Below are positions 6,508 through 52,604 of a stretch of DNA of 64,000 nt, in pieces (position 1 is the stretch's first letter; every line of letters starts with the position of its first letter). The notes under the pieces are model-generated. The model did no database searches, was not told where the DNA came from, and worked only from the letters and a program-made list of their open reading frames with translations. This stretch comes from Prochlorococcus sp. MIT 0604 (GTDB lineage: Bacteria > Cyanobacteriota > Cyanobacteriia > PCC-6307 > Cyanobiaceae): the NCBI RefSeq assembly GCF_000757845.1, contig NZ_CP007753.1:1116001-1180000 (forward strand). The letters are read 5' to 3'. The position numbers and the translations under genes were made by a program.

Positions 6508-8211
6508 ATGTCAACCACGTCTAATTCATTTAAAGAAAAGCTTACGAAAAATTTTTCTGAATTTTCTCAATTATCTGACTATTCTTTTATGAATTGTCTC
6601 AAAGCAGATCCTCAATCAACAAAAGATGGAAATGATCATAAGCCGCGTTCAGTATATTCAGGCCATTACGTACCAGTTCTCCCAACTGCTATTCAAGATC
6701 CAGAATATATTTCTCATAGCAACAAACTTTTTAAAGAACTAAGGCTAAGCTCAGATCTTACTAAAGACCAAAATTTTTGTCGTTTTTTCTCAGGTGATAT
6801 TTCTGTTGCTAAATATCCAATGAGCCCTTTTGGTTGGGCAACAGGTTATGCATTATCAATTTACGGGACTGAATATACCCAACAATGTCCTTTTGGAACT
6901 GGCAATGGTTATGGCGATGGCAGAGCAATTTCTGTTTTTGAAGGTTTATTCAATGGGAAAAGAATGGAAATGCAACTTAAAGGAGGAGGTCCAACTCCCT
7001 ATTGTCGCGGAGCAGATGGTAGAGCTGTCTTAAGGTCTAGCGTACGAGAATTTCTCGCACAGGAATTAATGAATGCCTTGGGAATCCCCACCTCAAGATC
7101 TTTAACACTTTATGTCTCACGTTCAGAAATAGTAAGAAGACCGTGGTATTCCAAAGGGTCCAGATATTTTGAACCTGATATCATGATTGATAATCAAGCG
7201 GCAATTACTACGAGAGTCGCTCCATCTTTTTTACGTGTAGGCCAGATTGAACTTTTTGCAAGACGAGTTCGTAATAATGCGCATGATGAGGCCCTCAATG
7301 AACTAAAGATGATAGTTCAACATCTAATTGATAGAAATTATAAAGATGAAATTGAATATGAGATTTCAATTGAAAGTAAAGTAATAAAACTGGCTTCTTT
7401 ATATAGATCAAGACTTATGTCACTTATAGCCAACTGGATGAGAGTTGGTTATTGCCAGGGTAATTTCAATAGTGATAATTGTGCTGCTGGAGGTTATACC
7501 TTGGATTATGGCCCCTTTGGATTCTGTGAATTATTTGATCCAAGATTTCAGCCATGGACAGGTGGAGGTGAACATTTCTCATTTTTTAACCAGCCTTCTG
7601 CAGCGGCAATCAACTTTAAAACATTCTGTTCATCTCTTAGTCCGTTACTTTCACAAAGCAAACAAGATCAAGAAAAGTTAGATCAAATCGAAAAAGAATT
7701 TTCTGAATTAATGAATAAGGAATTGATGAAAATGTGGGCAAACAAGCTTGGTTTAGAACATTACAACGAAACTATAATAAATGAATTTTTTAATCTCATG
7801 GTCATTTCAAAAGCAGACTATACAATTTTGTTCCGTAAACTGTCTGAAATACCTGATAACTTAGATTCTTTAAAAGACTGTTTCTATTTACCAATTAATG
7901 ACGAGCTCAATAATAGTTGGGAAGTATGGCTTGAAAACTGGCAATCAGTCTTGAAGAAAGAGGGAAATATTAAAGCAAAATCGGCATCAATGAAATCCCT
8001 TAATCCAGTCTATACTTGGCGCGAATGGATGGTCGTTCCCGCATATGAAGAAGCTGAAAAGGGAAATTACAAAAAAATAAAAGAGTTACAGGATGTCTTT
8101 AGCAATCCATATGTAGAACAACCCCCAGAAATAGATCAAAAATATAATCGACTAAAGCCAAGCCAGTATTTTAACTATGGAGGAGTATCTCATTACAGTT
8201 GTTCTTCATAA
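6508..8211 (+). CDS. selO: SelO/YdiU protein adenylyltransferase (pseudokinase fold)
   Basis: SelO (UPF0061) transfers AMP from ATP to Ser/Thr/Tyr of target proteins and is linked to redox stress. Diagnostic blocks are present: SPFGWATGYALSIYG, MQLKGGGPTPYCRGADGRA, AVLRSSVREFLAQE, and the metal/catalytic region FNSDN...DYGPFGF, with Asn and Asp equivalent to the Mg-binding residues. The C-terminus ends in CSS, placing Cys at the antepenultimate position where eukaryotic SELENOO has selenocysteine, so the protein is full length. At 567 residues it is longer than the E. coli protein (about 480). It is a stand-alone gene. Confidence 0.9.
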   Translation: MSTTSNSFKEKLTKNFSEFSQLSDYSFMNCLKADPQSTKDGNDHKPRSVYSGHYVPVLPTAIQDPEYISHSNKLFKELRLSSDLTKDQNFCRFFSGDISVAKYPMSPFGWATGYALSIYGTEYTQQCPFGTGNGYGDGRAISVFEGLFNGKRMEMQLKGGGPTPYCRGADGRAVLRSSVREFLAQELMNALGIPTSRSLTLYVSRSEIVRRPWYSKGSRYFEPDIMIDNQAAITTRVAPSFLRVGQIELFARRVRNNAHDEALNELKMIVQHLIDRNYKDEIEYEISIESKVIKLASLYRSRLMSLIANWMRVGYCQGNFNSDNCAAGGYTLDYGPFGFCELFDPRFQPWTGGGEHFSFFNQPSAAAINFKTFCSSLSPLLSQSKQDQEKLDQIEKEFSELMNKELMKMWANKLGLEHYNETIINEFFNLMVISKADYTILFRKLSEIPDNLDSLKDCFYLPINDELNNSWEVWLENWQSVLKKEGNIKAKSASMKSLNPVYTWREWMVVPAYEEAEKGNYKKIKELQDVFSNPYVEQPPEIDQKYNRLKPSQYFNYGGVSHYSCSS

Positions 8212-8253
8212 AAGTTAAATCCTCATACTGATAGAACAACTCTGAGAAAAATC

Positions 8254-8676
8254 TTATTTATTTATGGCCGTAGGCATTCCAACTACTGATACAACTCCCA
8301 CATGAAGTATGGCCGGCTTCTTTCCAACATTTTTCACATAGTGTGGGGCACCATTATTACTCTCAATAAATGCATCACCTGCTTTAAAGAAATTAATTTC
8401 TTCACCCCTCACATGCTTTAATCTTCCTCTGGTGACATGAATCAACATTGGGGAAGGATGAGTATGAATTGGAGTTTTCAACCCAACTGGAATTTTTACT
8501 TTTAAGAGTCTCAATTCAGGCTTACCCTCGAGATAATTAAAATTTTTACCACTTAGTCCTTTTGAACTTTGAATAATAGGTATAACTTCAATCTTTTCTT
8601 CAGCAAGAGAAGGTTGTGGTAAAGCTAAAGTCCCAATAAAAAGGAAACAAAATGGAATAAATGTTTTTATTTTCAT
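8254..8676 (-). CDS. secreted cupin-domain protein
   Basis: I use the ATG at 8676 (MKIKTFIPFCFLFIG), which gives a clean signal peptide ending near QPSLA; a start six codons upstream (8694) is also open. The mature part is a single cupin barrel with motif 1 around TPIHTHPSPMLIHVTRG and motif 2 near HYVKNVGKKPAILHVG. The His residues suggest a bound metal. It is probably periplasmic. No enzyme activity can be assigned. Confidence 0.75.
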   Translation of the reverse strand: MKIKTFIPFCFLFIGTLALPQPSLAEEKIEVIPIIQSSKGLSGKNFNYLEGKPELRLLKVKIPVGLKTPIHTHPSPMLIHVTRGRLKHVRGEEINFFKAGDAFIESNNGAPHYVKNVGKKPAILHVGVVSVVGMPTAINK

Positions 8677-8729
8677 TAGATAAATGAGATTCACTAATAA
8701 TAGGTAGTTTGCAAAAATAATAAACTAAT

Positions 8730-8891
8730 TTATTTTTTATATAACTTTTCTAATTGCTTAATTTCCTCTCTTAAATCCTTACCTCTCTTATTTAATTTAT
8801 TATTTTTAATAACTATTGGGATAATCCACCAGGATTGAAGACCTAAAAAGATAAATACTAAGATCAATAATTCAAAAGTACCTGGCTGCAT
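8730..8891 (-). CDS. small single-helix membrane protein, 53 aa
   Basis: This ORF reads MQPGTFELLILVFIFLGLQS and continues WWIIPIVIKNNK. One N-terminal transmembrane helix is followed by a charged coiled-coil tail (RGKDLREEIKQLEKLYKK). The architecture resembles tiny twin-helix or anchor proteins of cyanobacterial membranes. The first residues, hydrophobic block and tail form a coherent protein, which makes chance unlikely. No family is recognised. Confidence 0.55.
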   Translation of the reverse strand: MQPGTFELLILVFIFLGLQSWWIIPIVIKNNKLNKRGKDLREEIKQLEKLYKK

Positions 8892-8964
8892 TTGATAAAT
8901 AACCCTTCTTTCTTAATAACATTATTCTAAAAGTTATTAAACATTCATGAGATTTGGAATTTTC

Positions 8965-9147
8965 CTAGGCTGCCTCTAATTCAATATTAAGTTCAACTCC
9001 CTTTGAAATGATTGCTTCTTTAAATTCAATAAGTTTGGAAATTATTCTTTGCTTCTCAGGATCAGTTTTGTGAATATCATCTACAACTTCCTGCATTGCA
9101 AGTGTTACTTTTTGTAGTTTGATTTCTAGATCTTCCCTGTAATTCAT
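8965..9147 (-). CDS. small coiled-coil hypothetical protein, 60 aa
   Basis: The product (MNYREDLEIKLQKVTLAMQE) is charged and helical throughout with heptad-like spacing of Leu/Ile/Val, so it could form a short coiled coil. It has no membrane segment or cysteines. It precedes the 8730-8891 gene on the same strand. No function is recognised. Confidence 0.5.
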   Translation of the reverse strand: MNYREDLEIKLQKVTLAMQEVVDDIHKTDPEKQRIISKLIEFKEAIISKGVELNIELEAA

Positions 9148-9221
9148 AAGCTTAAAGAAATTATCTTATTTATTAAAAAACAAAATAATTATTAGTAAAT
9201 AAGTACTTAACCTTAAAAGGA

Positions 9222-9248
9222 TTGACAGCAAAACAAGGAGGATATAAT
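9222..9248 (+). promoter_or_regulatory. candidate sigma70-type promoter for the DUF1651 gene
   Basis: TTGACA at 9222-9227 and TATAAT at 9243-9248 are exact consensus hexamers separated by 15 bases, slightly shorter than the usual 17. They lie about 50 bases upstream of the ATG at 9297. An AGGAGG within the spacer is too far upstream to act as its ribosome binding site. Confidence 0.5.
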
Positions 9249-9296
9249 TTATAGTACAAACGTATTAATAGTCAGTCGGCCGATTAAAGGTAAAGT

Positions 9297-9566
9297 ATGG
9301 AGCCTAAGTACTCATTTGGTTGTAGCACTAGCAAACCCAACGGATGCCTACTAAATCCCGAAGGCAGCAGAATCATATTTTTCGAAGAATGCAAAAATTC
9401 TCCTAAACCTAATTTAAAAATTCATACTCATCTTTTCTACACAAATCACCTCGGAGAACCTGGAGGGTACAAATCCTCTGAAAAATTCAACATAGATTCA
9501 GCCTGGGAAAAGTGGCACGAACTGCACCAAAAAGGATGGACAGAAGTATCTCATAATTACGGATAA
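9297..9566 (+). CDS. DUF1651-family protein
   Basis: The 89-residue protein contains the core of the marine-picocyanobacterial DUF1651 family: an early NGCLLNPEGSRIIFFEE segment and the C-terminal AWEKWHELHQKGWTEV, with the conserved W-x-x-L-x-x-x-GW pattern. The family is small, soluble, often multicopy and of unknown function. It has a good candidate promoter upstream and is probably monocistronic. Confidence 0.7.
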   Translation: MEPKYSFGCSTSKPNGCLLNPEGSRIIFFEECKNSPKPNLKIHTHLFYTNHLGEPGGYKSSEKFNIDSAWEKWHELHQKGWTEVSHNYG

Positions 9567-9683
9567 GTGATCCGGCCAAGAAAAAGCCTTTATAGATGAA
9601 AGGTGTAAACTAGCTCCTTTTTTTTTATCTTGCTATAAAAATAATAAAAGATGATTTAACTTCTTCTGCTTCAATGAAATATT

Positions 9684-9974
9684 GTGGAATTAACTGAGCT
9701 AATTAGGGATTACGTTGCTACAGAATTATTATCAAGTATTGAACTTGACTTTCTTGAAGGAGAATTATGGGAAACTACACAACATATCGCAGAAATAAAT
9801 ACACTAATCAAAGCCCCTAAAAACATATGCAAGAAATTAGGACTAGATGAAAAATCTTGTTGGCATTTATGCAGTGCAGCAGTTCTTGACACCTCAAGAC
9901 CATTAAAAAATAGACAAAATAGAGTTGATGATTTTAAAAAACTAATTAATCTAAATGAAATCAGCTACATATAA
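9684..9974 (+). CDS. hypothetical protein, paralogue of the 4266-4565 gene
   Basis: This starts with GTG at 9684 (MELTELIRDYVATELL); an ATG ten bases upstream is out of frame. It shares with the 4266-4565 protein the block KAPKNICKKLGL, a W-x-x-C motif (WHLC), LDTSRP and VDDFKKLI. The 3' end overlaps the start of the next gene (9955) by 20 bases, so the two are probably translated together. Function is unknown. Confidence 0.6.
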   Translation: MELTELIRDYVATELLSSIELDFLEGELWETTQHIAEINTLIKAPKNICKKLGLDEKSCWHLCSAAVLDTSRPLKNRQNRVDDFKKLINLNEISYI

Positions 9975-10281
9975 AAAAGACTCAATTATACGTTTACTTA
10001 TTGCATCAATTCTTTTTTTTATACCACTAGAAGGTTTTGCTGATGAAAAGCAAAGAGAAATTGAGAATGAAGCTATAAATCTTGTCATTAAAAAATATGG
10101 AAAAGGCCTAGAAAATAGATTAAAAGGAACTGGAGTAACCCCCAGTTATCGAAGTTGGTATGAAAATGATTGTTTTGTAAGTATTGCAGCAGGTACATAC
10201 CAGGAAGATACTTGGTCGGCAATAAAGTGGTTTAGCGTTAATGTCTGTTCTGAATCAGCTGAAATAATGGAAAGTGAATGA
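9955..10281 (+). CDS. small secreted protein, related to island gene at 45386
   Basis: A signal peptide is visible (basic MKSATYKKDS, hydrophobic IIRLLIASILFFIPL, cleavage near EGFA-DE). The mature part contains EAINLVIKKYGKGLENRL, then SWYENDCFVSIAAGTY and WFSVNVC. The same spacing of A-I-x-L-V, Y-x-K-x-L-x-x-R, W, C, S, A, W, V and C occurs in the secreted protein at 45386-45736 inside the tRNA-Ser island, so they are probably homologues. The two cysteines could form a disulphide. Its start overlaps the preceding gene and its end overlaps the next by four bases (ATGA). Confidence 0.65.
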   Translation: MKSATYKKDSIIRLLIASILFFIPLEGFADEKQREIENEAINLVIKKYGKGLENRLKGTGVTPSYRSWYENDCFVSIAAGTYQEDTWSAIKWFSVNVCSESAEIMESE

Positions 10282-11015
10282 AGGGAATTAGACGCCTATT
10301 AGTTTTGCAGCATTTAGAAATAGAGGGGCCAGGTCTTTTTGAACAATTTGCTAAAGAAAGAAATTTAAAAATTGAAATAATTCGTTTAGATAATAAAAAT
10401 GCTCTGCCAAAAACAAAAAATGGTGACTTAATTTTAATTATGGGTGGACCAATGGGAGTTAAAGATATTGGAAGTGACAGATATCCATGGCTTAAGTTAG
10501 AAAGAGATTTTATAAAAAAAGAATTAGAAAATGAGAGACCTATGATCGGTGTTTGCTTAGGTGCTCAGTTGCTTGCGAGTGCTGCTGGCGGAGATGTAGA
10601 AATTCTTAAATATGGATCACCTCCAAAATCATTACCAGAAATTGGATGGTCTCAGATTTTTATAGACAAATCGAATAAAGACTTTAAAGCACTATTTGAA
10701 GACCCTTTTCATGTACTGCATTGGCATGGAGATAGGATTTTATTACCTAATAAAGCAGTACTCATTGCTAGTAGTGCACGTTGTAAGGAACAGTTTTTTA
10801 GGATTGGTAATTTTGCTTACGGATTACAATTCCATATAGAGACAACGGGAGGAATGATAAATAAGTGGATTAAAGAAGATAAAGAATTTGTCTTTAAAGG
10901 ATTGGGCTCAAATGGTCAGAAAATTTTAAAAGAAGAGAATAAAAAATATATTGATAAAACTTTTTACAAAAGAAAGCTTTTAATAAATAAATTATTTGAA
11001 TTATTAGATAATTAA
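10278..11015 (+). CDS. class I glutamine amidotransferase (GuaA-N-like)
   Basis: The protein is a stand-alone triad glutamine amidotransferase domain of 245 aa. The nucleophile elbow is GVCLGAQLLA (Cys near residue 92) and the catalytic His is in FHIET (near residue 183). MGGPMGVKD forms the oxyanion strand. It resembles COG0518 proteins that hydrolyse glutamine for an unknown acceptor or act on gamma-glutamyl compounds. It overlaps the upstream secreted-protein gene by four bases (ATGA), implying translational coupling. Confidence 0.8.
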   Translation: MKGIRRLLVLQHLEIEGPGLFEQFAKERNLKIEIIRLDNKNALPKTKNGDLILIMGGPMGVKDIGSDRYPWLKLERDFIKKELENERPMIGVCLGAQLLASAAGGDVEILKYGSPPKSLPEIGWSQIFIDKSNKDFKALFEDPFHVLHWHGDRILLPNKAVLIASSARCKEQFFRIGNFAYGLQFHIETTGGMINKWIKEDKEFVFKGLGSNGQKILKEENKKYIDKTFYKRKLLINKLFELLDN

Positions 11016-40238: not shown

Positions 40239-40527
40239 ATTAAAACCTTCTTACGTCTGGGAATTTTATAATAATACTCTATAAAAAATCGAAAAATCAA
40301 TTTTAAAAATTTTCAAGCATATAATTTCCAAGGTCATAAGAGAATTTCTGAAGTAGATTTTGTATTTTAGAGAGTGACTGATATTATCCAGCACCAAAAA
40401 TCCAGTTACGAAAAACTACCAATCATATATATATTGAATTATTAAAAGGCATTTTTTAGTTTTAAATTAAAAATATCTTCTTAAATAAAAGAAAATATCT
40501 TGACAAGGGTCTTAATTTATATTGCCT

Positions 40528-40686
40528 TTAGTAAACTTTGCAATGAGAACTTGTTGGGTGGTCTATACATTCTTTTTCCCAATAATCTTGTCTTTGATTT
40601 TTAGGTAGTTGATAATTAAAATCATGCATTCCCCACATATCTGAAGTTGCATTTCTTAGAAAGGTGAATGGAGAAGTTAGTTTCAT
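40528..40686 (-). CDS. small protein with C-terminal Cys motif, 52 aa
   Basis: I choose the ATG at 40686 (MKLTSPFTFLRNATSDMWGM) because a strong Shine-Dalgarno, AAAGGAGG, sits directly upstream; the longer frame would include it. The end ECIDHPTSSHCKVY has the C-x3-P-x4-C-x-x-aromatic pattern seen in several tiny stress-associated picocyanobacterial proteins. The protein at 54469 ends in a similar way. Function unknown. Confidence 0.65.
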   Translation of the reverse strand: MKLTSPFTFLRNATSDMWGMHDFNYQLPKNQRQDYWEKECIDHPTSSHCKVY

Positions 40687-40770
40687 AAAACCTCCTTTAT
40701 CTCTACGTTTCAATTATCCTACTTTTAGCTTGAAATACATAGAGTATTATTACCCGAATATTATTGCTTT

Positions 40771-40904
40771 GTGGTTGTCACGACTATCTTTTCTAATGCA
40801 GTAGGAATAGAAATAGTACAGGATTCAAAAGCACTTCATCGACTTTGTGGACAGAGAGGTGAATACGACTTCAAGAGAGCAAACAAATGCTCTCTTATTT
40901 TTTT
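40771..40904 (+). ncRNA. candidate small RNA ending in strong terminator
   Basis: A -10-like TATTAT (about 40745) precedes a segment that ends in a clear intrinsic terminator at 40873-40904. The only ORF (GTG 40771, 67 aa) runs straight through the terminator hairpin and has no Shine-Dalgarno, so a short non-coding transcript is at least as likely as a protein. It does not show the core motifs I know for Yfr1. A short protein, MVVTTIFSNAVGIEIVQDSK onward, cannot be excluded. Confidence 0.35.
40873..40904 (+). terminator. intrinsic terminator without an obvious upstream gene
   Basis: The nine-base perfect stem AAGAGAGCA/TGCTCTCTT with a six-base loop is followed by A and seven T. It implies a transcript from the preceding 130 bases on the plus strand. 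Confidence 0.75.
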
Positions 40905-41020
40905 CAATTTTAATAATGTTTTTTCAATAATTAAACCTATGAGGAAATCTTACTTTTTCTTATTAGAAGTATAATAATTAAAATCTCTTTGAAAAAGTTC
41001 AAAAAGTATTTAGAGAATGT

Positions 41021-41200
41021 ATGAGCACCAAGCGGGATGACAAATCATGGCAGAAAGATTTCTTAAACATGAAGTCACATTCTCTTTCAGATGCGAAACT
41101 CTTAATGGGAGGTATAAAAGGATTAAAAGATGCATGGCGTCTTGGTGTTCTGCATGTTGAATACGAAAGACTAAAGAAATTACAGGAGCAACAGCAATGA
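41021..41200 (+). CDS. small hypothetical protein, 59 aa, pair member 1
   Basis: The sequence MSTKRDDKSWQKDFLNMKSH is followed by a Gly-rich helical segment (LMGGIKGLKDAWRLGVLHVE) and a Gln-rich tail. It overlaps the next gene by four bases (ATGA). The two proteins look related: both have a W-Q-K near the start and, further on, a G-x-x-L/F-x-x-x-x-x-LG-x-x-x-x-x-Y pattern. Function unknown. Confidence 0.55.
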   Translation: MSTKRDDKSWQKDFLNMKSHSLSDAKLLMGGIKGLKDAWRLGVLHVEYERLKKLQEQQQ

Positions 41201-41367
41201 CAGAGAAAATAAACTGGCAGAAAGAATTATTAGAAAGTAGAAAATTTAATAATAAATTTTCAAAAAATCTTATAGAGCATGGAGCAAAAAACTTTATGCA
41301 AGGAATCTATCTTGGATATATGTATTCCAGATGGAGAGAAATAAGAGGTTTAGATAAATATGAATAA
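41197..41367 (+). CDS. small hypothetical protein, 56 aa, pair member 2
   Basis: MTEKINWQKELLESRKFNNK leads to HGAKNFMQGIYLGYMYSRWR. It starts inside the stop of the 41021 gene (ATGA) and appears to be its diverged copy. No signal peptide or clear membrane helix. Function unknown. It lies just outside the left edge of the tRNA-Ser island. Confidence 0.55.
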   Translation: MTEKINWQKELLESRKFNNKFSKNLIEHGAKNFMQGIYLGYMYSRWREIRGLDKYE

Positions 41368-41437
41368 TTAGAAAATACAGTTCAAATGCAATCATCATTC
41401 AAAGAATTTGAAAATAATTAACAGAATTAATCGTCCC

Positions 41438-42064
41438 TTAGAAAGTTCTATTTAATTTAAAATTAAACGAAAGACTTATTCTTTCCTCATCAGATAAATT
41501 AATCTCAACCGCGTGAGGAACCCAGGAAGGAAAAACAACTAGCAAATTTTCCTTTGGTGAAATTGTATTAATGGGATAGTCATATCCTTGCATTTGGTAG
41601 CCTTCTTTAAAAAGACCCATATATTCTGAGGAAATGAAGTCAGCTTCATTAAAATTCCTATAGAAAAGAAATCTTCCTCCTTTCATTTCTTTTGGTACTT
41701 TAATGAAAAATACACCTGAATAAGTTAAGCCTGAATGAGTATGAGGCGTATTAGAAGAACCTTTTCCACTTATATTTATCCAAAAATTTGTTAATTGTAG
41801 GTCACCTTTTCTGCTGATTTGATGAATTGTATTAACAGCATTAATAATTTGCTTTAATAAATGATTGGTTCCTGGAAGATTATTTAAATCTCTAATGTCT
41901 TTTGAATGATATGATTGAAAACCAGAATTACTTTTAACAACACCATCTTTATCATTTTTTCTGATCAAATAAGCCTCTTTTTGTAATTGCTCTATATTTT
42001 CATTTAGTTCAGCAGTCCAAAACTGTGTTGGGAATAAAAAACCAGGTTTAATTTGAATTTTCAT
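41438..42064 (-). CDS. putative 2-oxoglutarate/Fe(II) oxygenase
   Basis: The 208-aa protein matches the TIGR02466-type 2OG-Fe(II) oxygenases, which are frequent in marine cyanobacteria and cyanophages. The metal His is in NTPHTHSGLTYSGVFF, and the distal His is in FPSWVPHAVEI, followed by SDEERISLSFNF for 2-oxoglutarate binding. The substrate is unknown. It is the last ordinary gene before the island. Confidence 0.8.
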   Translation of the reverse strand: MKIQIKPGFLFPTQFWTAELNENIEQLQKEAYLIRKNDKDGVVKSNSGFQSYHSKDIRDLNNLPGTNHLLKQIINAVNTIHQISRKGDLQLTNFWINISGKGSSNTPHTHSGLTYSGVFFIKVPKEMKGGRFLFYRNFNEADFISSEYMGLFKEGYQMQGYDYPINTISPKENLLVVFPSWVPHAVEINLSDEERISLSFNFKLNRTF

Positions 42065-42629: not shown

Positions 42630-44960
42630 CTATGAATTATGACTCCTAAAAAAAGAAATTAATTTATTGAAGCCTGCACTATACATACTTTTACCTCTAA
42701 CGTCTAAAGCTTTGTTCTCAGGCACAGATAACCATTCATTTTTTAATTCTTCTAAATCCTCATTTCTTACTAATTCATCAACAGTTGAATATTGAGGTTT
42801 CATTTTTAAAATCTCATTGGTAATTTTATAAACCGCACTGACATATTTCCCAACAGAACTGTCACTCAAATTTGTTTCTTTTCTCATCCAATCTGAAAAT
42901 GGAGCATCATACATAAAGGTTTTTGCAAAACTCAACCTATTCCATATTTTTAAGTCAATATTTGAATAAAACTCTTTTAGATTAATTGAACTAAATACTT
43001 CCTCATCTTCAATGAATTTAAAAATTCTTTCTTTTGGAACTTTTCCTTGTGCGATTTGTTGAAACTCAGCAATAATTCTCTCATCACTCATTCCTAAGGC
43101 AGATAACACTGTAATTATTTGTTTGAAAGCATTCTCCTGAACGGAACTATTATCTTCCCCCTCAAGTACTATCGGCAAAATAATATATCCAAATTCTTTA
43201 TTTTGGGAAACTCTCATTGCCCTTCCAGCTGCCTGCACTATATCTACCTTGCTATGCTTTGGATCCGCAAAAAGTACTGCATCAACTTCTGGGATATCAA
43301 CCCCCTCAGTAAGGCATCTTGCATTAGTTATTAAACTTGGATCTTCATAAATAAATCTATTAAGTGCTTCTGATCTTTTCCCGGTACTATCTTTTCCAGA
43401 AATATGAAAAGAATGAACATATCCAAATTCTCCTCCTAATTTATTTACTTCCTCATTTAATTCTCTAAATTCCTTAGCCCTTTTTATATTCCTATGAAAT
43501 GAGATTATATGTTTTACTTTATGTTCTTTGATAATCTTCCTTAAAGTAATTAATGCTGCGAATGTAGAGGCATCAGCTTCAAAAGACCACAACTTATTAC
43601 CAGCAGTAAGAAATTCATTATTATCAATTAATTCTTTTATCTGATCTTTATAAATCACTGTGGAGAAAATTTTATAATCGGAAAGAATTGGAGGTTTTTG
43701 TTCTAGAGCAGATTTAAATGAGATTTGATCAACAACTTTTCCATAAATTTGCTCATCATCCATTGAGACAATCTCCTCAGAATCTCCTTTAAAAACTCTT
43801 TCAGTAGCTGTCATAAATAATCTTTTTGTGATTTGAATATTTTCATCGTAAAGAAGTTGTGCGAAAGGTTTTTTCTTATTACCTACAGTTTTATGTGCCT
43901 CGTCAAATATTCCAATATCGAAAATTAAACCTGAATCTTTCCCAGCTTCTATTATTTTTTTTCCACTTTGATAAGTAGTAATTACAATTTTTATTTTGTC
44001 AGAATCTTTTTCTAAGAACGAGGAAATTATTTGATTATCAGTATTAACCTCGATACCAATTTCAAAAGTATTTAAAGCTGGATCATCAAGATTTTTGACA
44101 TCATCATCACTACAAACGGCAATCCAATCAATTTCTATCCCTTCACATAGAAATTCTCTAGCCCAAGTTTTAAGAGTTTGTTTTACAAGCTGTAAGCTAG
44201 GAACAATGATTATCGCATTTCGACCATTCATATATCTGAAAAACCAGTACCCAGTTAAACTTTTTCCAGAACCACAAGGATGTATTAGTTTGCCTCTAGA
44301 TTCTCTAGAGAAATAATCAAGACAATTTCTCAGGGCTATCTTTTGATGTTCCCTTGGCTCATATTTACTAAGTATTATTTTTTGATTATCTAAAATTGAA
44401 TGAAAATTTTTAAAATCTTCATTATTGAGTTGGGAGAAATCTGAATATGTTAAAAAACCTAATTTTTCTCTATGAACATTTGAAATTTTCTTACTAACTT
44501 CTAACGCTGATGAACTTATAATCCGATGTCTTATTTTGCTATAAGTTATTTCTCTTTCTGTAATCCCAAAAAAAGTACTGACCTCATCATAAGAAACGTT
44601 TTTGTTTATATCCTCGTGATATTTGCATTGAATTGCCCAAAGATTCCCATCATTTGATTCAGCTATAAGATCAACACCAACTTCTGGTTTCTGCAAATCT
44701 AAACAATCAAATATTTGATTTGGAACATTGGTATGGTGCCAAAGATTTACTAATTTACTAGAAAAAATAGGATTATTTACGAAATAAAGGGAAGTTAATA
44801 ATTCGAATACATCCCCCTTTTTTTTATTATTTTCTGGACTTGATCCAAGTTGAGTTATATTTTTGGAAAACTCATCCCAATTATTTGAGGCAAAAACTAA
44901 ATCTTTTGTTTCTGGTTTCTTAAAAAGATCTATAACTTGAATTGATCTTTCTGAAAGCAT
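42630..44960 (-). CDS. Mrr-like nuclease fused to SF2 helicase (restriction/defence)
   Basis: The 776-aa protein has an N-terminal restriction-endonuclease fold: GVDLI (Asp near 97) and the QCK pair (near 111-113) form a PD-(D/E)xK-type site of the Mrr kind. A DEAD/DEAH helicase follows, with Walker A PCGSGKS at 228-234, DEAH at 353-356, ITTYQSG (motif Ib/II region) and QAAGRAMR (motif VI). The nuclease-helicase order matches the front half of Type ISP restriction enzymes, but no methyltransferase or target-recognition domain follows. It is the only gene between the two 12-base repeat arrays. Confidence 0.85.
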   Translation of the reverse strand: MLSERSIQVIDLFKKPETKDLVFASNNWDEFSKNITQLGSSPENNKKKGDVFELLTSLYFVNNPIFSSKLVNLWHHTNVPNQIFDCLDLQKPEVGVDLIAESNDGNLWAIQCKYHEDINKNVSYDEVSTFFGITEREITYSKIRHRIISSSALEVSKKISNVHREKLGFLTYSDFSQLNNEDFKNFHSILDNQKIILSKYEPREHQKIALRNCLDYFSRESRGKLIHPCGSGKSLTGYWFFRYMNGRNAIIIVPSLQLVKQTLKTWAREFLCEGIEIDWIAVCSDDDVKNLDDPALNTFEIGIEVNTDNQIISSFLEKDSDKIKIVITTYQSGKKIIEAGKDSGLIFDIGIFDEAHKTVGNKKKPFAQLLYDENIQITKRLFMTATERVFKGDSEEIVSMDDEQIYGKVVDQISFKSALEQKPPILSDYKIFSTVIYKDQIKELIDNNEFLTAGNKLWSFEADASTFAALITLRKIIKEHKVKHIISFHRNIKRAKEFRELNEEVNKLGGEFGYVHSFHISGKDSTGKRSEALNRFIYEDPSLITNARCLTEGVDIPEVDAVLFADPKHSKVDIVQAAGRAMRVSQNKEFGYIILPIVLEGEDNSSVQENAFKQIITVLSALGMSDERIIAEFQQIAQGKVPKERIFKFIEDEEVFSSINLKEFYSNIDLKIWNRLSFAKTFMYDAPFSDWMRKETNLSDSSVGKYVSAVYKITNEILKMKPQYSTVDELVRNEDLEELKNEWLSVPENKALDVRGKSMYSAGFNKLISFFRSHNS

Positions 44961-45185: not shown

Positions 45186-45198
45186 TACGGAGAGGGTG
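45186..45198 (+). repeat. 13-bp copy of tRNA-Ser 3' end (att-like site)
   Basis: TACGGAGAGGGTG is identical to 52455-52467, which is the 3' terminus of tRNA-Ser(CGA) plus two flanking bases. Such partial tRNA-end repeats are left by tyrosine-recombinase integration. With the tRNA copy it brackets the secreted-protein and Type III genes. Confidence 0.7.
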
Positions 45199-45293: not shown

Positions 45294-45385
45294 TTTAGTT
45301 TTTATTACCTAAGAGACCTAATTTACACCCTCTTTAATTTTTTGATATTGACACGGTATTTAAAATTAGTTGAAGGATAATAATT

Positions 45386-45736
45386 TTGAAAAAACTACTT
45401 CTTTTATTTTTACTATTTGGTTTTAATACTCCTGTAAATGCGGAACAGTATCCCAGGCATAAATTGACCTGCCCAGAATCGCAAGGTGAATGCTCTGAGG
45501 GAGAAAGAGCAGCAATTAAATTAGTTAACGACACCTATTGGAAAATGCTTACAAAAAGGATTGAACGTAATACTCATTACAAATATCCTTGGTATTGGGT
45601 TTATAAAAGGGGAGAGTGTAAATATTCAGTCGGTGCAAAAGAGGATATGCCTACTCATACAGTCACTATGGAATGGATAGAAGTTGATATTTGCGAGAAG
45701 ACCACTAAGTTAATAGATCTTAGTCGTCGTAGGTAA
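45386..45736 (+). CDS. island secreted protein 1, homologue of the 9955 protein
   Basis: The start is TTG at 45386 with AAGGA eight bases upstream. A signal peptide (MKKLLLLFLLFGFNTPVNA) is followed by a mature domain with four Cys. The block AAIKLVNDTYWKMLTKRI and the later W, C, S, A, W, V, C positions match the secreted protein at 9955-10281 outside the island. The stop overlaps the next ATG by one base (TAATG). It probably acts in the periplasm or at the cell surface; function unknown. Confidence 0.7.
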   Translation: MKKLLLLFLLFGFNTPVNAEQYPRHKLTCPESQGECSEGERAAIKLVNDTYWKMLTKRIERNTHYKYPWYWVYKRGECKYSVGAKEDMPTHTVTMEWIEVDICEKTTKLIDLSRRR

Positions 45737-46287
45737 TGAAACTCTTCCTCCTTTTGCCACTTTTATTAGGTGTTATTCCTTCAGTTAAGGCAGACTCGAT
45801 TTGCACTCTTACAAGTGAAGTAGAACCAGATGTAACTATAACTTTAAAATATATTGGTTCCGCTGGTGGTATTGGGACTTTAAATTATAAAAATAAACCT
45901 TCATTAGGTTTCTATGTAGGTATCTGGAATGGATACGGAGGTCAATATTACACTGCGATGACATATTCACCTGAATTATTAAACGAAGAAAAAACCTATC
46001 AGGAAAGAACAAAAAATACAGAAAAGATAAGAACAGGACATTTTATGAATTTTGTTGGAAATCAATTAGGAAGAGCGACTTCAATAGAAGATAGGAAATC
46101 TGGGAAGTTAAGAGCATTAATGCCATCACTGTCACAAGGTTATTATTATTCGATTCCTTTCACTAAAGATGGTGAATTTGGAAGACAAAAATTATCAAAA
46201 GAAATGAAAACCATTATTGATGCTACCGAAGGTTTTTTTGTTAATTCAGGTGGGTGTAGAAAGTTCTTTCCTTATGGATGGGATTAA
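45736..46287 (+). CDS. island secreted protein 2
   Basis: A signal peptide (MKLFLLLPLLLGVIPSVKA) leads to a beta-rich mature domain of about 160 residues: TLTSEVEPDVTITLKYIG, SLGFYVGIWNGYGGQYYTAM, and a C-terminal GGCRKFF. It has two cysteines (SICTL near the start and GGC near the end) that could bridge the domain. It overlaps both neighbours by one base (TAATG at each end). No family is recognised. Confidence 0.65.
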   Translation: MKLFLLLPLLLGVIPSVKADSICTLTSEVEPDVTITLKYIGSAGGIGTLNYKNKPSLGFYVGIWNGYGGQYYTAMTYSPELLNEEKTYQERTKNTEKIRTGHFMNFVGNQLGRATSIEDRKSGKLRALMPSLSQGYYYSIPFTKDGEFGRQKLSKEMKTIIDATEGFFVNSGGCRKFFPYGWD

Positions 46288-46679
46288 TGAAAAAACTTTT
46301 ATTTGGTATCTTATTTTTAAGTTTTTTATCTCCCATTAATTCTGAAACAAAGGATAAAAAAGAATATGACAAATATGATTTCTATTCAAAATGTTTAGAT
46401 GATGCTTTGCCTAAAAAAATGAATAATGCATTAGTCTGGGAATGCTCAACAAAAGCATCAAAAAAACTTGATTCTTTAATTCAAAAGCAAATATCCTCTA
46501 GAGGTGATTGCGATAAAGAGGGATTTGAATCACATGCTTGCCAATTAAAGAGAAGTCAAACTGCGTTTAAGACTTATTATCAAACCGAATGCACTTGGAA
46601 TAAATATGGTCCTCATTATGAGTATTGTGAAATGATTCTCAAAAAAGATCGATTAAAATGGTTAGATAAAACTCTTTGA
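46287..46679 (+). CDS. island secreted protein 3, LprI/DUF1311-like
   Basis: I use the ATG at 46287, which overlaps the upstream stop (TAATG); an ATG nine bases earlier is less likely. Signal peptide MKKLLFGILFLSFLSPINS. The mature part has several Cys and the motif QLKRSQTAFKTYYQTECTWN, close to the L-x-x-SQ-x-A-W-x-x-Y-x-x-x-EC pattern of DUF1311. That family includes the lysozyme inhibitor LprI and YecT. An envelope-protective or lysozyme-inhibitor role is plausible but inferred. Confidence 0.7.
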   Translation: MKKLLFGILFLSFLSPINSETKDKKEYDKYDFYSKCLDDALPKKMNNALVWECSTKASKKLDSLIQKQISSRGDCDKEGFESHACQLKRSQTAFKTYYQTECTWNKYGPHYEYCEMILKKDRLKWLDKTL

Positions 46680-46806: not shown

Positions 46807-49064
<2,258 letters not shown>

Positions 49065-49065
<1 letters not shown>

Positions 49066-51707
49066 TGCCAATACCTCCAGGTCTTTCAAAATCTCCGTTT
49101 GAGATAAATATACCCAGCGAAAGATGGAAACCAGATATTGATCTAGTTAAAAAACCAATTCAACAATTTAATGCACCCTTTGTCGAGAAAATCCGAGAAG
49201 AAGTGCATGAATGGAGACAGTTTGGATATGATGGCGTTTCAGATACATCAAAATACTTACTTAATTTCTGGTTTAATTATCAACATAAGAATGATTTTCA
49301 GTATTATTTTGCTCAAAGAGAATCAGTAGAATCTATTATTTATCTTTTTGAATACAAGAAGGTCAGATCTAATAGAGATTTGCTTACTCTAGACTCTTGG
49401 GGTATCACAGAGGATTTTCTCCAAGATGATTGGTTAAGGTTAATTATTAAACAGGCAACAGGTAGTGGCAAAACAAAAGTATTGTCTTTATTAATTGCTT
49501 GGTCATATTTTCATTCTTTATACGAAAGCGATTCTATCCTTTCCAAAAATTTTTTAGTAATGGCACCTAATACTATTGTGTTGGACAGATTAAGGACTGA
49601 CATAGAAGGATTAAATATATTTAATAATGATCCAATTATTCCTCTCAACGGGTACGAAAACAGATCATGGAGTTTTTCTCCTAAAGTTCATATCCAAGAC
49701 GATATCAAAAGTATATCTGATCTGGGCAATATTTTTTTAACTAACGTGCAGAGATTTGCAGAGAGGAATAAACAAAACAATGAATATGATTTAAAAAGTA
49801 AATTCTTAGGACCTGAACCTAATATTAAAAAAGGTGGGATAAAGAATACTGTAAAAGAAACAGTTAAAAAACTAGATAACCTTATCGTATTAAATGATGA
49901 AGCACATCACGTTTACGAAAATACTGCCTGGAAAAGATCAATAGAGGATATTCATAACTCTTTAAAACAAAAAGGGCAAAAACTTGTTTTGCAAATTGAC
50001 GTGACAGCAACCCCAAAAAATAAAAAAGGAGAAATTTTTACTCAAACAATTTCTGATTACCCATTAGTAGAAGCAATTTATCAAGAAGTTGTTAAGAAAC
50101 CTGTAATTCCTGATTTACCAAGTAGAGAAAAGTTAAAAGAATATCCTTCATCAATTTTTTCTGAAAAATATCGTGATTATCTTCATCTAGGGTATGAGAC
50201 TTGGAAGAAACAATATGAAAAACATAAAAAAATGAACAAAAAAGCACTTTTGTTCATAATGGTTGACGATACAAAAAATTGTGATGACGTAGAAAATTAC
50301 TTAAAGTCTACTTTCCCACTCTTAAAAAACGGTATTTTTGTAATTCATACAAAAGATAATGCGAGAGATTCAACAGGCGAAATAAATGAAAATACCTCAA
50401 AAGGGAAAGAAGAATTACAGAGATTAAGAAGATTAGTTAATACTGTTGATGATTTAGATAGTCCAATTAAAGTTATTATTTCGGTGCTTATGCTCAAGGA
50501 GGGTTGGGATGTACGGAATGTCACAACTATTGTCGGTCTAAGAGCATATGCTTCTCATATATTGCCAGAACAAACCTTAGGAAGAGGTTTGAGAAGAATG
50601 TATTTTGGGCAACAGTTAGACGAAGAATTAGATGTTATTGGAACAGATAACTTTATTGATTATGTAAAAAGTATTTCTGAAGAAGGGGTTGAACTAGAGG
50701 AAATACCGACGGGGGGAAGTAATCCATCCTCTGGACCAGTAGTTATAAATGTAGATGAGGAAAATGGATCAAAGAATATAAATGAATTAGATATTGAAAT
50801 CCCCTCTATTCCAAAAAGGTATGGTAGGGATTTTCTTTCCTTACAATTATTGAATCCTAATGAATTCAAATTTAAACCTTGTAAATTAAGAAACTACTCT
50901 AAAGAAGAATCAATTAAAGAGATAATTTTTAAAGATATAATCGAAGACTCTGAACAAAAGTCAATTAAATTTGATAATCTTGAATATTTAACTTCTACTA
51001 CAGTATTGAGATTTTTTACTGAGGTTATTATAAAAGATCTTGGTTTTTCAAAATTAGGAGTGAATCATTTTATATATGGAAAGTTAAAGATTTTTGTATC
51101 AGATATTTTATTTGGAAAACACGTTGATATTGATGATTTAAATATAATTAGGAATCTATCGGAACCCTTTATTACCAGTCAAATAATAGAAACTTTTAAA
51201 AAAGAAATTAATAATTTGTCCTTGAAAGATTTAGGTTTTAAGGATTCAAACCTTTCCACATTTGTATCTAATACAAAACCCTATTTGTCGTCAAGAAAAA
51301 AGATTTATTATTCTCCTAAAAAATCTATTTTTAATTTTATTGCTGGAGATAGTAAATTTGAAATTGAATTTGCTAAGCATCTAGATAGTTTTGATGATGT
51401 AGTATCTTTTTTCAAAAATGACATTCAAATGAAGCAGTATATTGAATACGTTAAACATGATGGAAGGATAGGGAGTTACTACCCTGACTTCTTCATTAAA
51501 TTAAAGGATGAAAGTATTTGGATTGTTGAAACCAAAGGAGCAGAAACATTGAATGATCCTTTGAAATATAAAAGACTAGAAACCTGGTGTAAAGATGCTA
51601 CTAAGACTCAAAATATTAATTGGGATTGTCTTTACTTAAGACAAGAAGTTTGGAATTCTATAAAAGTTAAACCTAATTGTTTTTTTGATTTGTTAAATAT
51701 GATTTGA
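49065..51707 (+). CDS. Type III-like restriction helicase-endonuclease (Res)
   Basis: The 880-aa protein has Walker A ATGSGKT (about 131-137), NDEAHH (DEAH near 278), DVTATPKN (motif III), LMLKEGWDVRNVTTIVGLR and QTLGRGLRR (motifs V and VI). The C-terminal nuclease is PD-(D/E)xK: YYPDFF (about 806) and VETKG (about 820). This is the full Res layout, with ATP-driven sliding and cleavage when two sites meet. All motifs appear intact, so the system is probably active. Its ATG overlaps the mod stop. Confidence 0.92.
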
Positions 51708-51861: not shown

Positions 51862-52056
51862 ATGATTACTAATAAAAGATACCAAACGCTATTAATGCTT
51901 GCGACTACAGGCAAACCTTTAAATAAAGACGCTACAGAAGAAGAAAAGAAATTCTACGAAGAATGTAAACATGACTATAAAGTTATGCATGAAACCGCCA
52001 AGAAACATGGCATAAAGAATCCGATTTTAGAAATACCAATGGAAGTAGATTTTTAA
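51862..52056 (+). CDS. small charged protein in the island, 64 aa
   Basis: The protein MITNKRYQTLLMLATTGKPL continues with an acidic/basic helix (ATEEEKKFYEECKHDYKVMH) and ends IPMEVDF. It is probably soluble, with one Cys. It is followed seven bases later by another small acidic gene. Unrecognised. Its place between res and the tRNA end suggests part of the mobile module, perhaps regulatory or anti-restriction. Confidence 0.5.
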   Translation: MITNKRYQTLLMLATTGKPLNKDATEEEKKFYEECKHDYKVMHETAKKHGIKNPILEIPMEVDF

Positions 52057-52063
52057 AGAAAAA

Positions 52064-52255
52064 ATGCAACCACCAAAGACTTCTGAAGAATTAGAAGAAA
52101 TGTATCCCGATCTAGAACCTTGGCAAAGGGATGAACTAGAGGTTTGGCACAGAGGATGGATTACTAAATTGATGACAGGAGAATCAACATCTGAAGAATA
52201 CAATGCCGCGACACCTCCTCATCCAGACCCACATCATCCTGAAGAAGATGAATAG
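52064..52255 (+). CDS. small acidic protein in the island, 63 aa
   Basis: MQPPKTSEELEEMYPDLEPW is followed by DELEVWHRGWITKLMTGEST and a Pro/His-rich acidic tail (PPHPDPHHPEEDE). The strong net negative charge is reminiscent of DNA-mimic or metal-binding peptides, but no family is recognised. It lies about 200 bases before the tRNA-Ser 3' end and likely shares a transcript with the 51862 gene. Confidence 0.5.
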   Translation: MQPPKTSEELEEMYPDLEPWQRDELEVWHRGWITKLMTGESTSEEYNAATPPHPDPHHPEEDE

Positions 52256-52454: not shown

Positions 52455-52467
52455 TACGGAGAGGGTG
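52455..52467 (+). repeat. tRNA-Ser 3'-end att-like repeat, right copy
   Basis: TACGGAGAGGGTG covers two flanking bases and the last 11 bases of tRNA-Ser (reverse orientation). It is identical to 45186-45198 and defines the presumed attachment core. Confidence 0.7.
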
Positions 52468-52541
52468 GGATTCGAACCCACGAATAGTTTCCTATTAAAC
52501 GATTTCGAGTCGTTCGCTTTCGACCACTCAGCCACCTCTCC
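52457..52541 (-). tRNA. trnS-CGA: tRNA-Ser(CGA)
   Basis: The minus strand folds as a class II tRNA with a GGAGAGG/CCTCTCC acceptor stem and discriminator G. The anticodon arm is AACGA-CTCGAAA-TCGTT, giving anticodon CGA. A long variable arm and the T arm GTGGG-TTCGAAT-CCCAC are also present. CCA is not encoded. Its 3' end is the apparent integration site of the neighbouring island, which lies on its 3' side, as usual for tRNA-targeted elements. The tRNA itself is intact. Confidence 0.95.
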
Positions 52542-52604
52542 GCCTGTTTATTAAGTATGCACGTAATAATGAGAAAATTATGAACTACATAATTATCTTA
52601 ATTT

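Follow-up and report, generated by a model that had tools for sequence, protein, structure and literature searches.

Three overlapping genes of Prochlorococcus sp. MIT 0604, encoding the predicted exported proteins P1, P2 and P3, form a compact operon that appears to travel between genomes as cargo of small integrative cassettes. The operon structure and the mobility are well supported by the sequences compared here, and the function is a hypothesis: tentatively, with somewhat less than even confidence, we read the trio as a self-contained, coupled operon on mobile cassettes whose proteins may act in conflicts on the envelope side of the cell. Prochlorococcus cells are among the most abundant photosynthetic cells, with a small genome and under phage pressure, and anti-phage defence has mostly been described as intracellular. 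If the reading is right, a portable set of exported proteins travelling together with restriction systems would amount to an outer layer of defence of an unusual kind, small genomes would gain a portable outer plus inner layer, and orphan island genes would gain functions.

Three overlapping genes with signal-like N-termini

The analysed stretch (the window, 64,000 nucleotides) runs from base 1116001 to base 1180000 of a genome assembled as one contig of 1,780,061 bp; excerpts of PMC4421930 list MIT0604 as HLII Prochlorococcus with genome CP007753. The ORF map of the window places P1, P2 and P3 consecutively on the + strand at 45386-46679 (Table 1), and both the P1-P2 and the P2-P3 junction read TAATG, which bears out the preliminary description of three overlapping genes with signal peptides, the latter judged here by eye. 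For P3 the ATG inside TAATG is taken as the start; the ORF listing begins at an earlier ATG (46278). P1 starts with TTG, with GAAGGA just before it. By eye, all three N-termini resemble Sec type I signal peptides, with K or KK, a Leu/Phe-rich stretch and then ..VNA, ..VKA or ..INS, and without a lipobox. From their sequences, P1-P3 are predicted to be exported and to carry disulphides.

Comparison of the leaders upstream of P1 showed that likeness to most other P1 loci begins near 45336, and a consensus promoter scan of the leader scored no better than shuffles. Parts of this leader recur at L065 13798-13844, before a restriction helicase gene, and once each at L067 14084-14146 and L091 7789-7844 (E 1e-4 to 1e-3; L numbers denote loci and G numbers genomes). 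A hairpin-like stretch 3' of P3 was considered as a terminator and rejected, as the scan found none. Elsewhere in the window, at 9955-11015, a second P1-family gene encodes a short form of 108 aa and overlaps the next ORF, glutamine-amidotransferase-like by eye, by 4 nt.

Table 1. Features in and around the trio cassette, in positions of the window.
Feature	Position	Strand	Length or remark
Mrr_cat_2 + ResIII helicase, restriction-like; left of the cassette, outside	42630..44960	-	
Direct 13-bp copy of tRNA-Ser(CGA) 3' end; outer cassette border (att-like)	45186..45198	+	~190 bp before P1
P1 leader, conserved; promoter-like TTGACA...TTAAAATT and RBS	45336..45385	+	likeness among P1 loci
P1, predicted exported, 4 Cys; modelled helix + 4-stranded sheet, cystatin-like arrangement	45386..45736	+	116 aa
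P2, predicted exported, invariant C23 and C174; modelled beta-rich fold	45736..46287	+	183 aa
P3, predicted exported; C-terminal part LprI/DUF1311-like (sub-threshold)	46287..46679	+	130 aa
Type III methyltransferase (Mod), DPPF and FVGSGTT motifs; same cassette as trio	46813..49065	+	
Type III restriction subunit (Res), Walker A, DEAH and PD-ExK motifs; same cassette	49065..51707	+	
Small ORF inside cassette; also at same hotspot in G438	51862..52056	+	64 aa
Small ORF inside cassette; also at same hotspot in G438	52064..52255	+	63 aa
tRNA-Ser(CGA), integration target	52456..52542	-	3' end 52455-52467 = inner cassette border

Small cassettes at tRNA and guaA ends

The gene-like ORFs between the two borders, 7.3 kb in all, are the trio, Mod, Res and the two small ORFs; lying between the 13-bp copy and the tRNA-Ser gene, the trio and the Type III genes look like one small integrative cassette. 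With up to 1 mismatch allowed, the window contains two occurrences of the 12-mer ACGGAGAGGGTG, where 0.04 would be expected. Besides Mod and Res there is no integrase-size ORF between the borders, and among the six Phage_integrase matches of the MIT 0604 genome those listed, at 496833 and 635240, lie outside the cassette. At two other loci a tyrosine recombinase gene sits inside the repeats (L071, by Pfam; L073, same cluster).

Across loci carrying trio genes, exact 12-26 nt repeats of the tRNA 3' end were found at 11 of 25 tRNA ends, and the interval contains the trio-family gene in 10 of these 11 cases (in L069 the contig ends first). For comparison, a GC-rich repeat of at least 12 nt occurred in 14 of 2940 random 20-nt windows, or about 1.9% per 70-nt end. 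The other 14 tRNA ends have no repeat, and in 17 of 49 loci the stretch examined lacks both a tRNA and guaA. Of 7 guaA ends, 2 have an exact repeat 12 nt or longer, in both cases with the trio-family gene inside; the corresponding background, repeats of any composition, is 181 of 2940 random windows, and the guaA repeat in L065, at 11 nt, is weaker still. (The counts 25, 7 and 17 were read by hand from the repeat searches, with tRNA-Tyr beside tRNA-Thr not counted as ends.) Because only 2 of 7 ends have the repeat and the background is high, the case for guaA leans chiefly on four additional copies in L066 and on the same motif in L072, and we regard guaA as a possible further integration target.

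Trios elsewhere lie at tRNA-Ser, tRNA-Asn or guaA. At the same tRNA-Ser site as in the window, G408 (L067, 5781/9718) shows that the trio is accompanied by an HNH gene, and in G462 (L069) three tRNA-Ser end copies are stacked. The remaining borders are formed by tRNA-Asn (L071, L073, L092, L149), tRNA-Cys (L070, L084), tRNA-Thr (L085), a tRNA-Ser of different end sequence (L112) and guaA (L066, L072). In the smallest units an operon stands by itself: in G356 the trio is alone in ~1.6 kb between guaA-end copies 7208 and 8834 of L066, and in G470 a diverged operon is alone between tRNA-Asn end copies 6180 and 8593 of L149. Such single-operon intervals show how small Prochlorococcus mobile units may be. 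That the trio would move between genomes as cargo of small tRNA-end cassettes is a well-supported reading of these borders.

Two side observations concern the same contigs. Five copies of the guaA-end motif at L066 4695-8834 appear to stack several small cassettes, and L149 6180-8606 (2.4 kb) holds four adjacent or overlapping genes with signal-like N-termini, including the diverged P3-like and P2-like genes.

Patchy distribution of the trio

A profile search found P3 in 7 of 151 genus genomes, and a single-sequence query found it in 3 of 400 family genomes, where the match in G374 is weak and falls on the P1 gene. P2 is present in 31 of the 151 genus genomes. P1 matches at E<=0.01 extend to 98 of them, with 12 strong matches (E<1e-20) in 11 genomes; most of the others are short paralogues of ~100-110 aa that align from residue 38-42 onward. 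This patchiness (P3 7/151, P2 31/151) rules out a housekeeping role, and the trio is indeed island cargo, as first proposed. MIT 0604 itself carries a second copy of the trio, at 40268-41561 of its genome.

The 36 named loci with P2 relatives comprise 33 from Prochlorococcus, 1 from Synechococcaceae and 2 titled SAR116. Both contigs titled SAR116 are short, at 3.5 and 4.8 kb; their P2 has 54% identity, and their GC of 0.30 is compatible with contamination. On these contigs (L125, L126), repeated recombinase-like HTH fragments, recognised by eye, flank the P2 relatives and could mark gene cassettes. A phage or plasmid origin of the trio was considered and set aside: phage records contain no trio relative by trio DNA or by protein, plasmid records no P2 match, and viral contigs no relative of P2 or P3.

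Coupled slots that exchange alleles

In the 49-locus set P1 and P2 are adjacent in 16 loci, and the start codon overlaps the preceding gene by 1 or 4 nt in 15 of these, the exception being L084, whose P1 has an internal stop. P2 and P3 are adjacent in 10 loci with a 1-nt overlap in nine (eight by script, L071 from ORF coordinates); the tenth, L122, has a gap of ~330 bp from P2 to the P3 match. With 15 of 16 and 9 of 10 adjacent pairs overlapping, these junctions are not due to chance. The set omits L095, L097 and L099-L104, which hold P2 remnants or short P1 paralogues only, and the contigs among L105-L140 taken as duplicates of other loci.

The association of P1 with P2 goes as far as fusion. 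In L128 (SCGC AAA795-M23, 7269-9709) P1, MORN_2 repeats and P2 constitute one 421-aa ORF, whose end is overlapped by an HNH_2 nuclease ORF, and MORN_2-like repeats also occur on P2 in G408 and G374; the repeats were identified by Pfam matches in L098 and L128 and by sequence likeness in L067. Similar repeats are known from MORN_2 repeat proteins of the type presumably named YwqK; some loci have them fused to P2 or P1-P2, and the P2 of the window lacks them. A fourth gene often follows the trio genes, either encoding a predicted exported, Cys-bearing protein (L068, L071, L073, L113, L122) or a protein of 547-570 aa with a hydrophobic N-terminus (L098, L107, L122; shorter in L108). The diverged operon of G470 combines a P3-like protein (28% identity to P3) with a P2-like one (P2 profile E 3.5e-9). 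Adjacency in 16 loci, 15 overlaps and the one fusion suggest that P1 and P2 work together; P3 would usually take the third position, often with one more exported or membrane protein after it.

Within this shared layout the alleles appear to mix freely. Across nine complete trios (the tenth, L122, was excluded for an extra P2-like gene) the pairwise identities of the P1, P2 and P3 slots are uncorrelated, with Spearman coefficients of 0.035, 0.028 and 0.062. The two copies in MIT 0604 share 76, 86 and 95% identity in P1, P2 and P3, and L107 shares 99, 98 and 62% with the second MIT 0604 copy. The three slots reassort, swapping alleles between cassettes. Free mixing of this kind speaks against a tightly co-evolved three-part complex, and we infer that a changing external target, one for each protein, is a likelier counterpart than a co-evolved partner. 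All pairs of seven trios gave dN/dS of 0.13-0.45, indicating purifying selection between copies and giving no sign of diversifying selection.

Restriction genes near trio loci

Mod and the adjacent Res carry the motifs expected of Type III restriction-modification and lie directly downstream of the trio, with the Mrr/ResIII helicase on the other side, so that the earlier claim of an adjoining Type III system is confirmed. The MIT 0604 genome has an intact-looking Type III system (46813-51707) and a IIG-like gene (L065 3800-7144). According to excerpts of PMC7523629, MIT0604 was among strains chosen for a lower likelihood of restricting DNA.

Proximity to restriction-modification (RM) genes was scored with four Pfam families, which occur in 6 (PF01555), 30 (PF02384), 27 (PF07669) and 75 (PF13156) of 151 genus genomes; PF13156 matches are mostly weak and were used only at E<1e-10, and a site matched by two families was counted a single time. 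Of 31 P2-family loci, 7 have an RM gene no more than 10 kb away, compared, among the matches listed, with 2 of 150 DUF3764 loci (p 6.5e-5) and 1 of 45 integrase loci (p 0.0067). The integrase control consists of 45 loci hand-picked among the matches listed, representing neither the near-universal ~389-aa form nor fragments. P1 loci without P2 gave 0 of 3 at the same distance. Within 5 kb the figure falls to 2 of 31 P2 loci, both from MIT 0604, and the controls, among the matches listed, to 1 of 150 and 0 of 45. Three of the seven RM-near P2 loci belong to one DISARM-like lineage and two to MIT 0604; collapsing the lineage leaves 5 of 29 (p 0.0013 and 0.03), and dropping MIT 0604 as well leaves 3 of 27 against 2 of 150 among the matches listed (p 0.026).

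PADLOC matches at E<1e-10 occur beside 17 of 49 loci, in a scan limited to hand-chosen large neighbours and run without a matched control. Fourteen come from the direct scan (the window, L065, L072, L079, L085, L086, L088, L090, L105, L106, L113, L118, L128 and L131) and three from clustering (L081, L087, L089), and the kinds found are Type I, II, III and IIG, DISARM DrmD, HNH and helicase-nuclease. Weak matches were obtained at L067 (HNH), L098 (Cas4-like) and L092, and L096 has an N6_Mtase ~8 kb from P2 on the same contig. Chosen neighbours without a PADLOC match include the 570-aa protein of L098, the 414-aa protein of L071, the 404-aa protein of L113, two of L074, and those of L077, L096, L107, L112 and L122; among the few neighbours scanned in G465, L107 and L122 there was no defence gene. 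Half of the complete trios, 5 of 10, have an RM or HNH gene in the stretch of sequence retrieved around them: the window, L065, L067 (weak), L113 and L068, the last counted because its HNH gene clusters with that of L067, and a T5orf172-type gene in L073 was left uncounted. As a separate observation, the P2 locus recurs beside a DISARM DrmD-like gene in L086 and L131 (scanned) and in L087 and L089 (by cluster).

The preliminary description had the trio carried together with restriction. This holds for the single cassette of the window and for the tendency of P2 loci to lie nearer RM genes than the controls do, and fails as a fixed link to Type III. We rejected such a coupling since PF01555 is present in only 6 of 151 genomes and in none of the six other P3-bearing genomes, and since the G356 trio stands alone.

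A somewhat unlikely alternative, yet the one that survives best, is that the trio is ordinary accessory cargo for envelope upkeep, surface display or stress, and that its proximity to defence genes reflects common integration hotspots. The solitary trio of G356, the solitary diverged operon of G470, the purifying dN/dS and the scanned neighbours of L077, L107, L112 and L122 (P2) and of L074 (P1 only), which gave no defence match, would all be expected from such cargo. That 7 of 31 P2 loci have an RM gene nearby, compared with 2 of 150 and 1 of 45 among the controls listed, argues for a closer tie, assuming that the controls resemble P2 islands.

Folds and families of P1, P2 and P3

Structure prediction, which the preliminary description had proposed for P1 and P2, yielded models and no confident structural relative for either protein. 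The P1 model (mean pLDDT 76.8) consists of a helix and four strands, and the P2 model (mean pLDDT 80.4) is beta-rich. Foldseek searches against PDB (P1 and P2) and against viral models (P2) returned nothing at E<=0.001, and VIA-align gave middling Z values only. In profile searches of PDB sequences P2 and P3 had no match, and no row for P1 was better than E 0.34. No Pfam family matched P2. P1 reached 16.4 bits (E 0.0097) against DUF6678 (PF20383), below the 24.5 cut-off, and 9 of 19 P1 family members match this family at E<=1 (best 0.007). Searched with PADLOC models, P1, P2 and a further seven proteins, either relatives or partners in the operon, gave no match at E<=1, and P3 gave a single weak one (E 0.042).

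The best VIA-align score of the P1 model, Z 6.4, is to a designed cystatin fold; lower scores were obtained with the T6SS immunity protein chain 4kt3_B (4.7) and the colicin M immunity protein 2xgl (4.6), both presumably guarding against wall-directed toxins. The P1 model shares a helix-plus-sheet arrangement with these proteins, and they are absent from its search of PDB sequences. The literature, in the excerpts available, also regards LprI-domain proteins as probably conferring immunity to T6SS effectors that cut peptidoglycan. P1-P3 might accordingly be conceived as a periplasmic immunity set that guards against competitors' toxins or wall hydrolases and not against phages. We consider this improbable: the P1 Z values are of a size that common folds also reach and too low to demonstrate relatedness, and the neighbours of the trio include DNA-directed defence.

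P3 had been described as LprI/DUF1311-like, and this may hold in part, through a C-terminal motif and a weak profile likeness. Its score against the LprI/DUF1311 profile (PF07007) is 14.6 bits (E 0.043), under the Pfam cut-off of 22; the profile matches 4 of 7 P3 family members at E<=1 (best 0.021) and, searched against the whole genome, nothing at E<=0.001. An hhalign comparison of P3 with 23 LprI domains gave E 0.00076 and a probability of 25% over 41 columns only (E 0.00093 and 23% with two further P3 sequences added), and the P1 and P2 profiles, used as controls, gave E 0.12 and 0.51. All six cysteines of P3 are invariant in a 7-sequence alignment. By eye, C53, C102 and C114 and an LxxSQxAF...YxxxC motif align with LprI, and part of this motif is also present in the profile alignment. 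P3 has in common with PF07007 proteins, including ScwA and T6SS immunity proteins, the predicted export, conserved Cys and the C-terminal motif; it differs in falling under the family cut-off and in its position: of eight close copies in the genus sample, seven come directly after P2 and one, L148 of G470, is alone.

The aligned cysteines and motif could also suggest that P3 prevents phage lysis or entry by inhibiting a lysozyme-like endolysin, a proposal we find very improbable. Lysozyme or endolysin inhibition by P3 is weakly based, with the LprI match sub-threshold, and in excerpts of PMC7933661 the LprI-domain protein ScwA confers no lysozyme resistance, and the second domain of M. tuberculosis LprI, MliC, suffices for it. 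A block of endolysin, moreover, would come too late to save the cell, which would leave entry lysins as the only sensible targets. Given ScwA and the likely T6SS immunity role of LprI proteins, a general binding or inhibition of factors that attack the envelope is favoured over lysozyme inhibition. We give scarcely any credence to a role serving the element itself, with exported proteins that exclude related elements at the surface or ride membrane vesicles, which would suit the link to cassettes at several site kinds and the tyrosine recombinase inside L071 and L073 and finds no sequence match to transfer functions and no plasmid record matching P2.

A possible envelope-side role

Our preferred reading, the trio as a mobile operon acting in envelope-side conflict, can be put together as follows. 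A translationally coupled operon would be carried by small integrative cassettes at tRNA 3' ends and beside guaA, the tRNA sites being backed by sequence and the guaA sites weaker. P1-P3 would reside in the periplasm or be released, where they may bind or inhibit envelope attackers such as phage entry proteins, peptidoglycan cutters or rivals' toxins, and the nuclease that is often in the same cassette or island would target invading DNA. Pointing to the envelope are the predicted export, the cysteines, the LprI-like part of P3 and the likeness of the P1 model to cystatin folds and, weakly, to the two immunity proteins. Because these exported proteins often stand beside enzymes that cut foreign DNA, they may act at the envelope against phages or rivals. 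A fuller version, in which P1, P2 and P3 with a variable P4 form a modular, allele-swapping exported set on minimal tRNA or guaA cassettes, repeatedly joined with diverse DNA-cutting defences as a previously undescribed mobile envelope-side conflict system, is unlikely to hold in every part. In either version the trio provides defined test genes for questions of envelope defence and of the minimal mobile unit.

Comparison with known mobile elements

Literature searches returned, among their best matches, no description of the P1-P2-P3 trio, and a reassorting operon of exported proteins as cassette cargo would set it apart from known tRNA-targeted elements, none of which, among these matches, was found to carry one. 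The nearest relatives in lifestyle are of two kinds. The additive flexible islands of Methylophilaceae, as excerpts of their description present them, have recurring tRNA-end copies, comparable with the three in L069 and the five guaA-end copies in L066; they belong to other organisms and have other cargo, with no secreted trio in the parts available. Tycheposons, according to excerpts of PMC10872708, are 4-200 kb long, use a tyrosine recombinase and in Prochlorococcus carry mainly nutrient cargo. Like the trio cassettes, they integrate at tRNA genes and hold their cargo between direct repeats, and L071 and L073 have an integrase as well. Set against these tycheposon excerpts, the ORF maps of the intervals in the window, L066 and L149 show no additional gene of recombinase size, and several trio intervals span only 1.6-7.3 kb, encode predicted secreted proteins, in some cases together with nucleases, and include guaA as a possible target.
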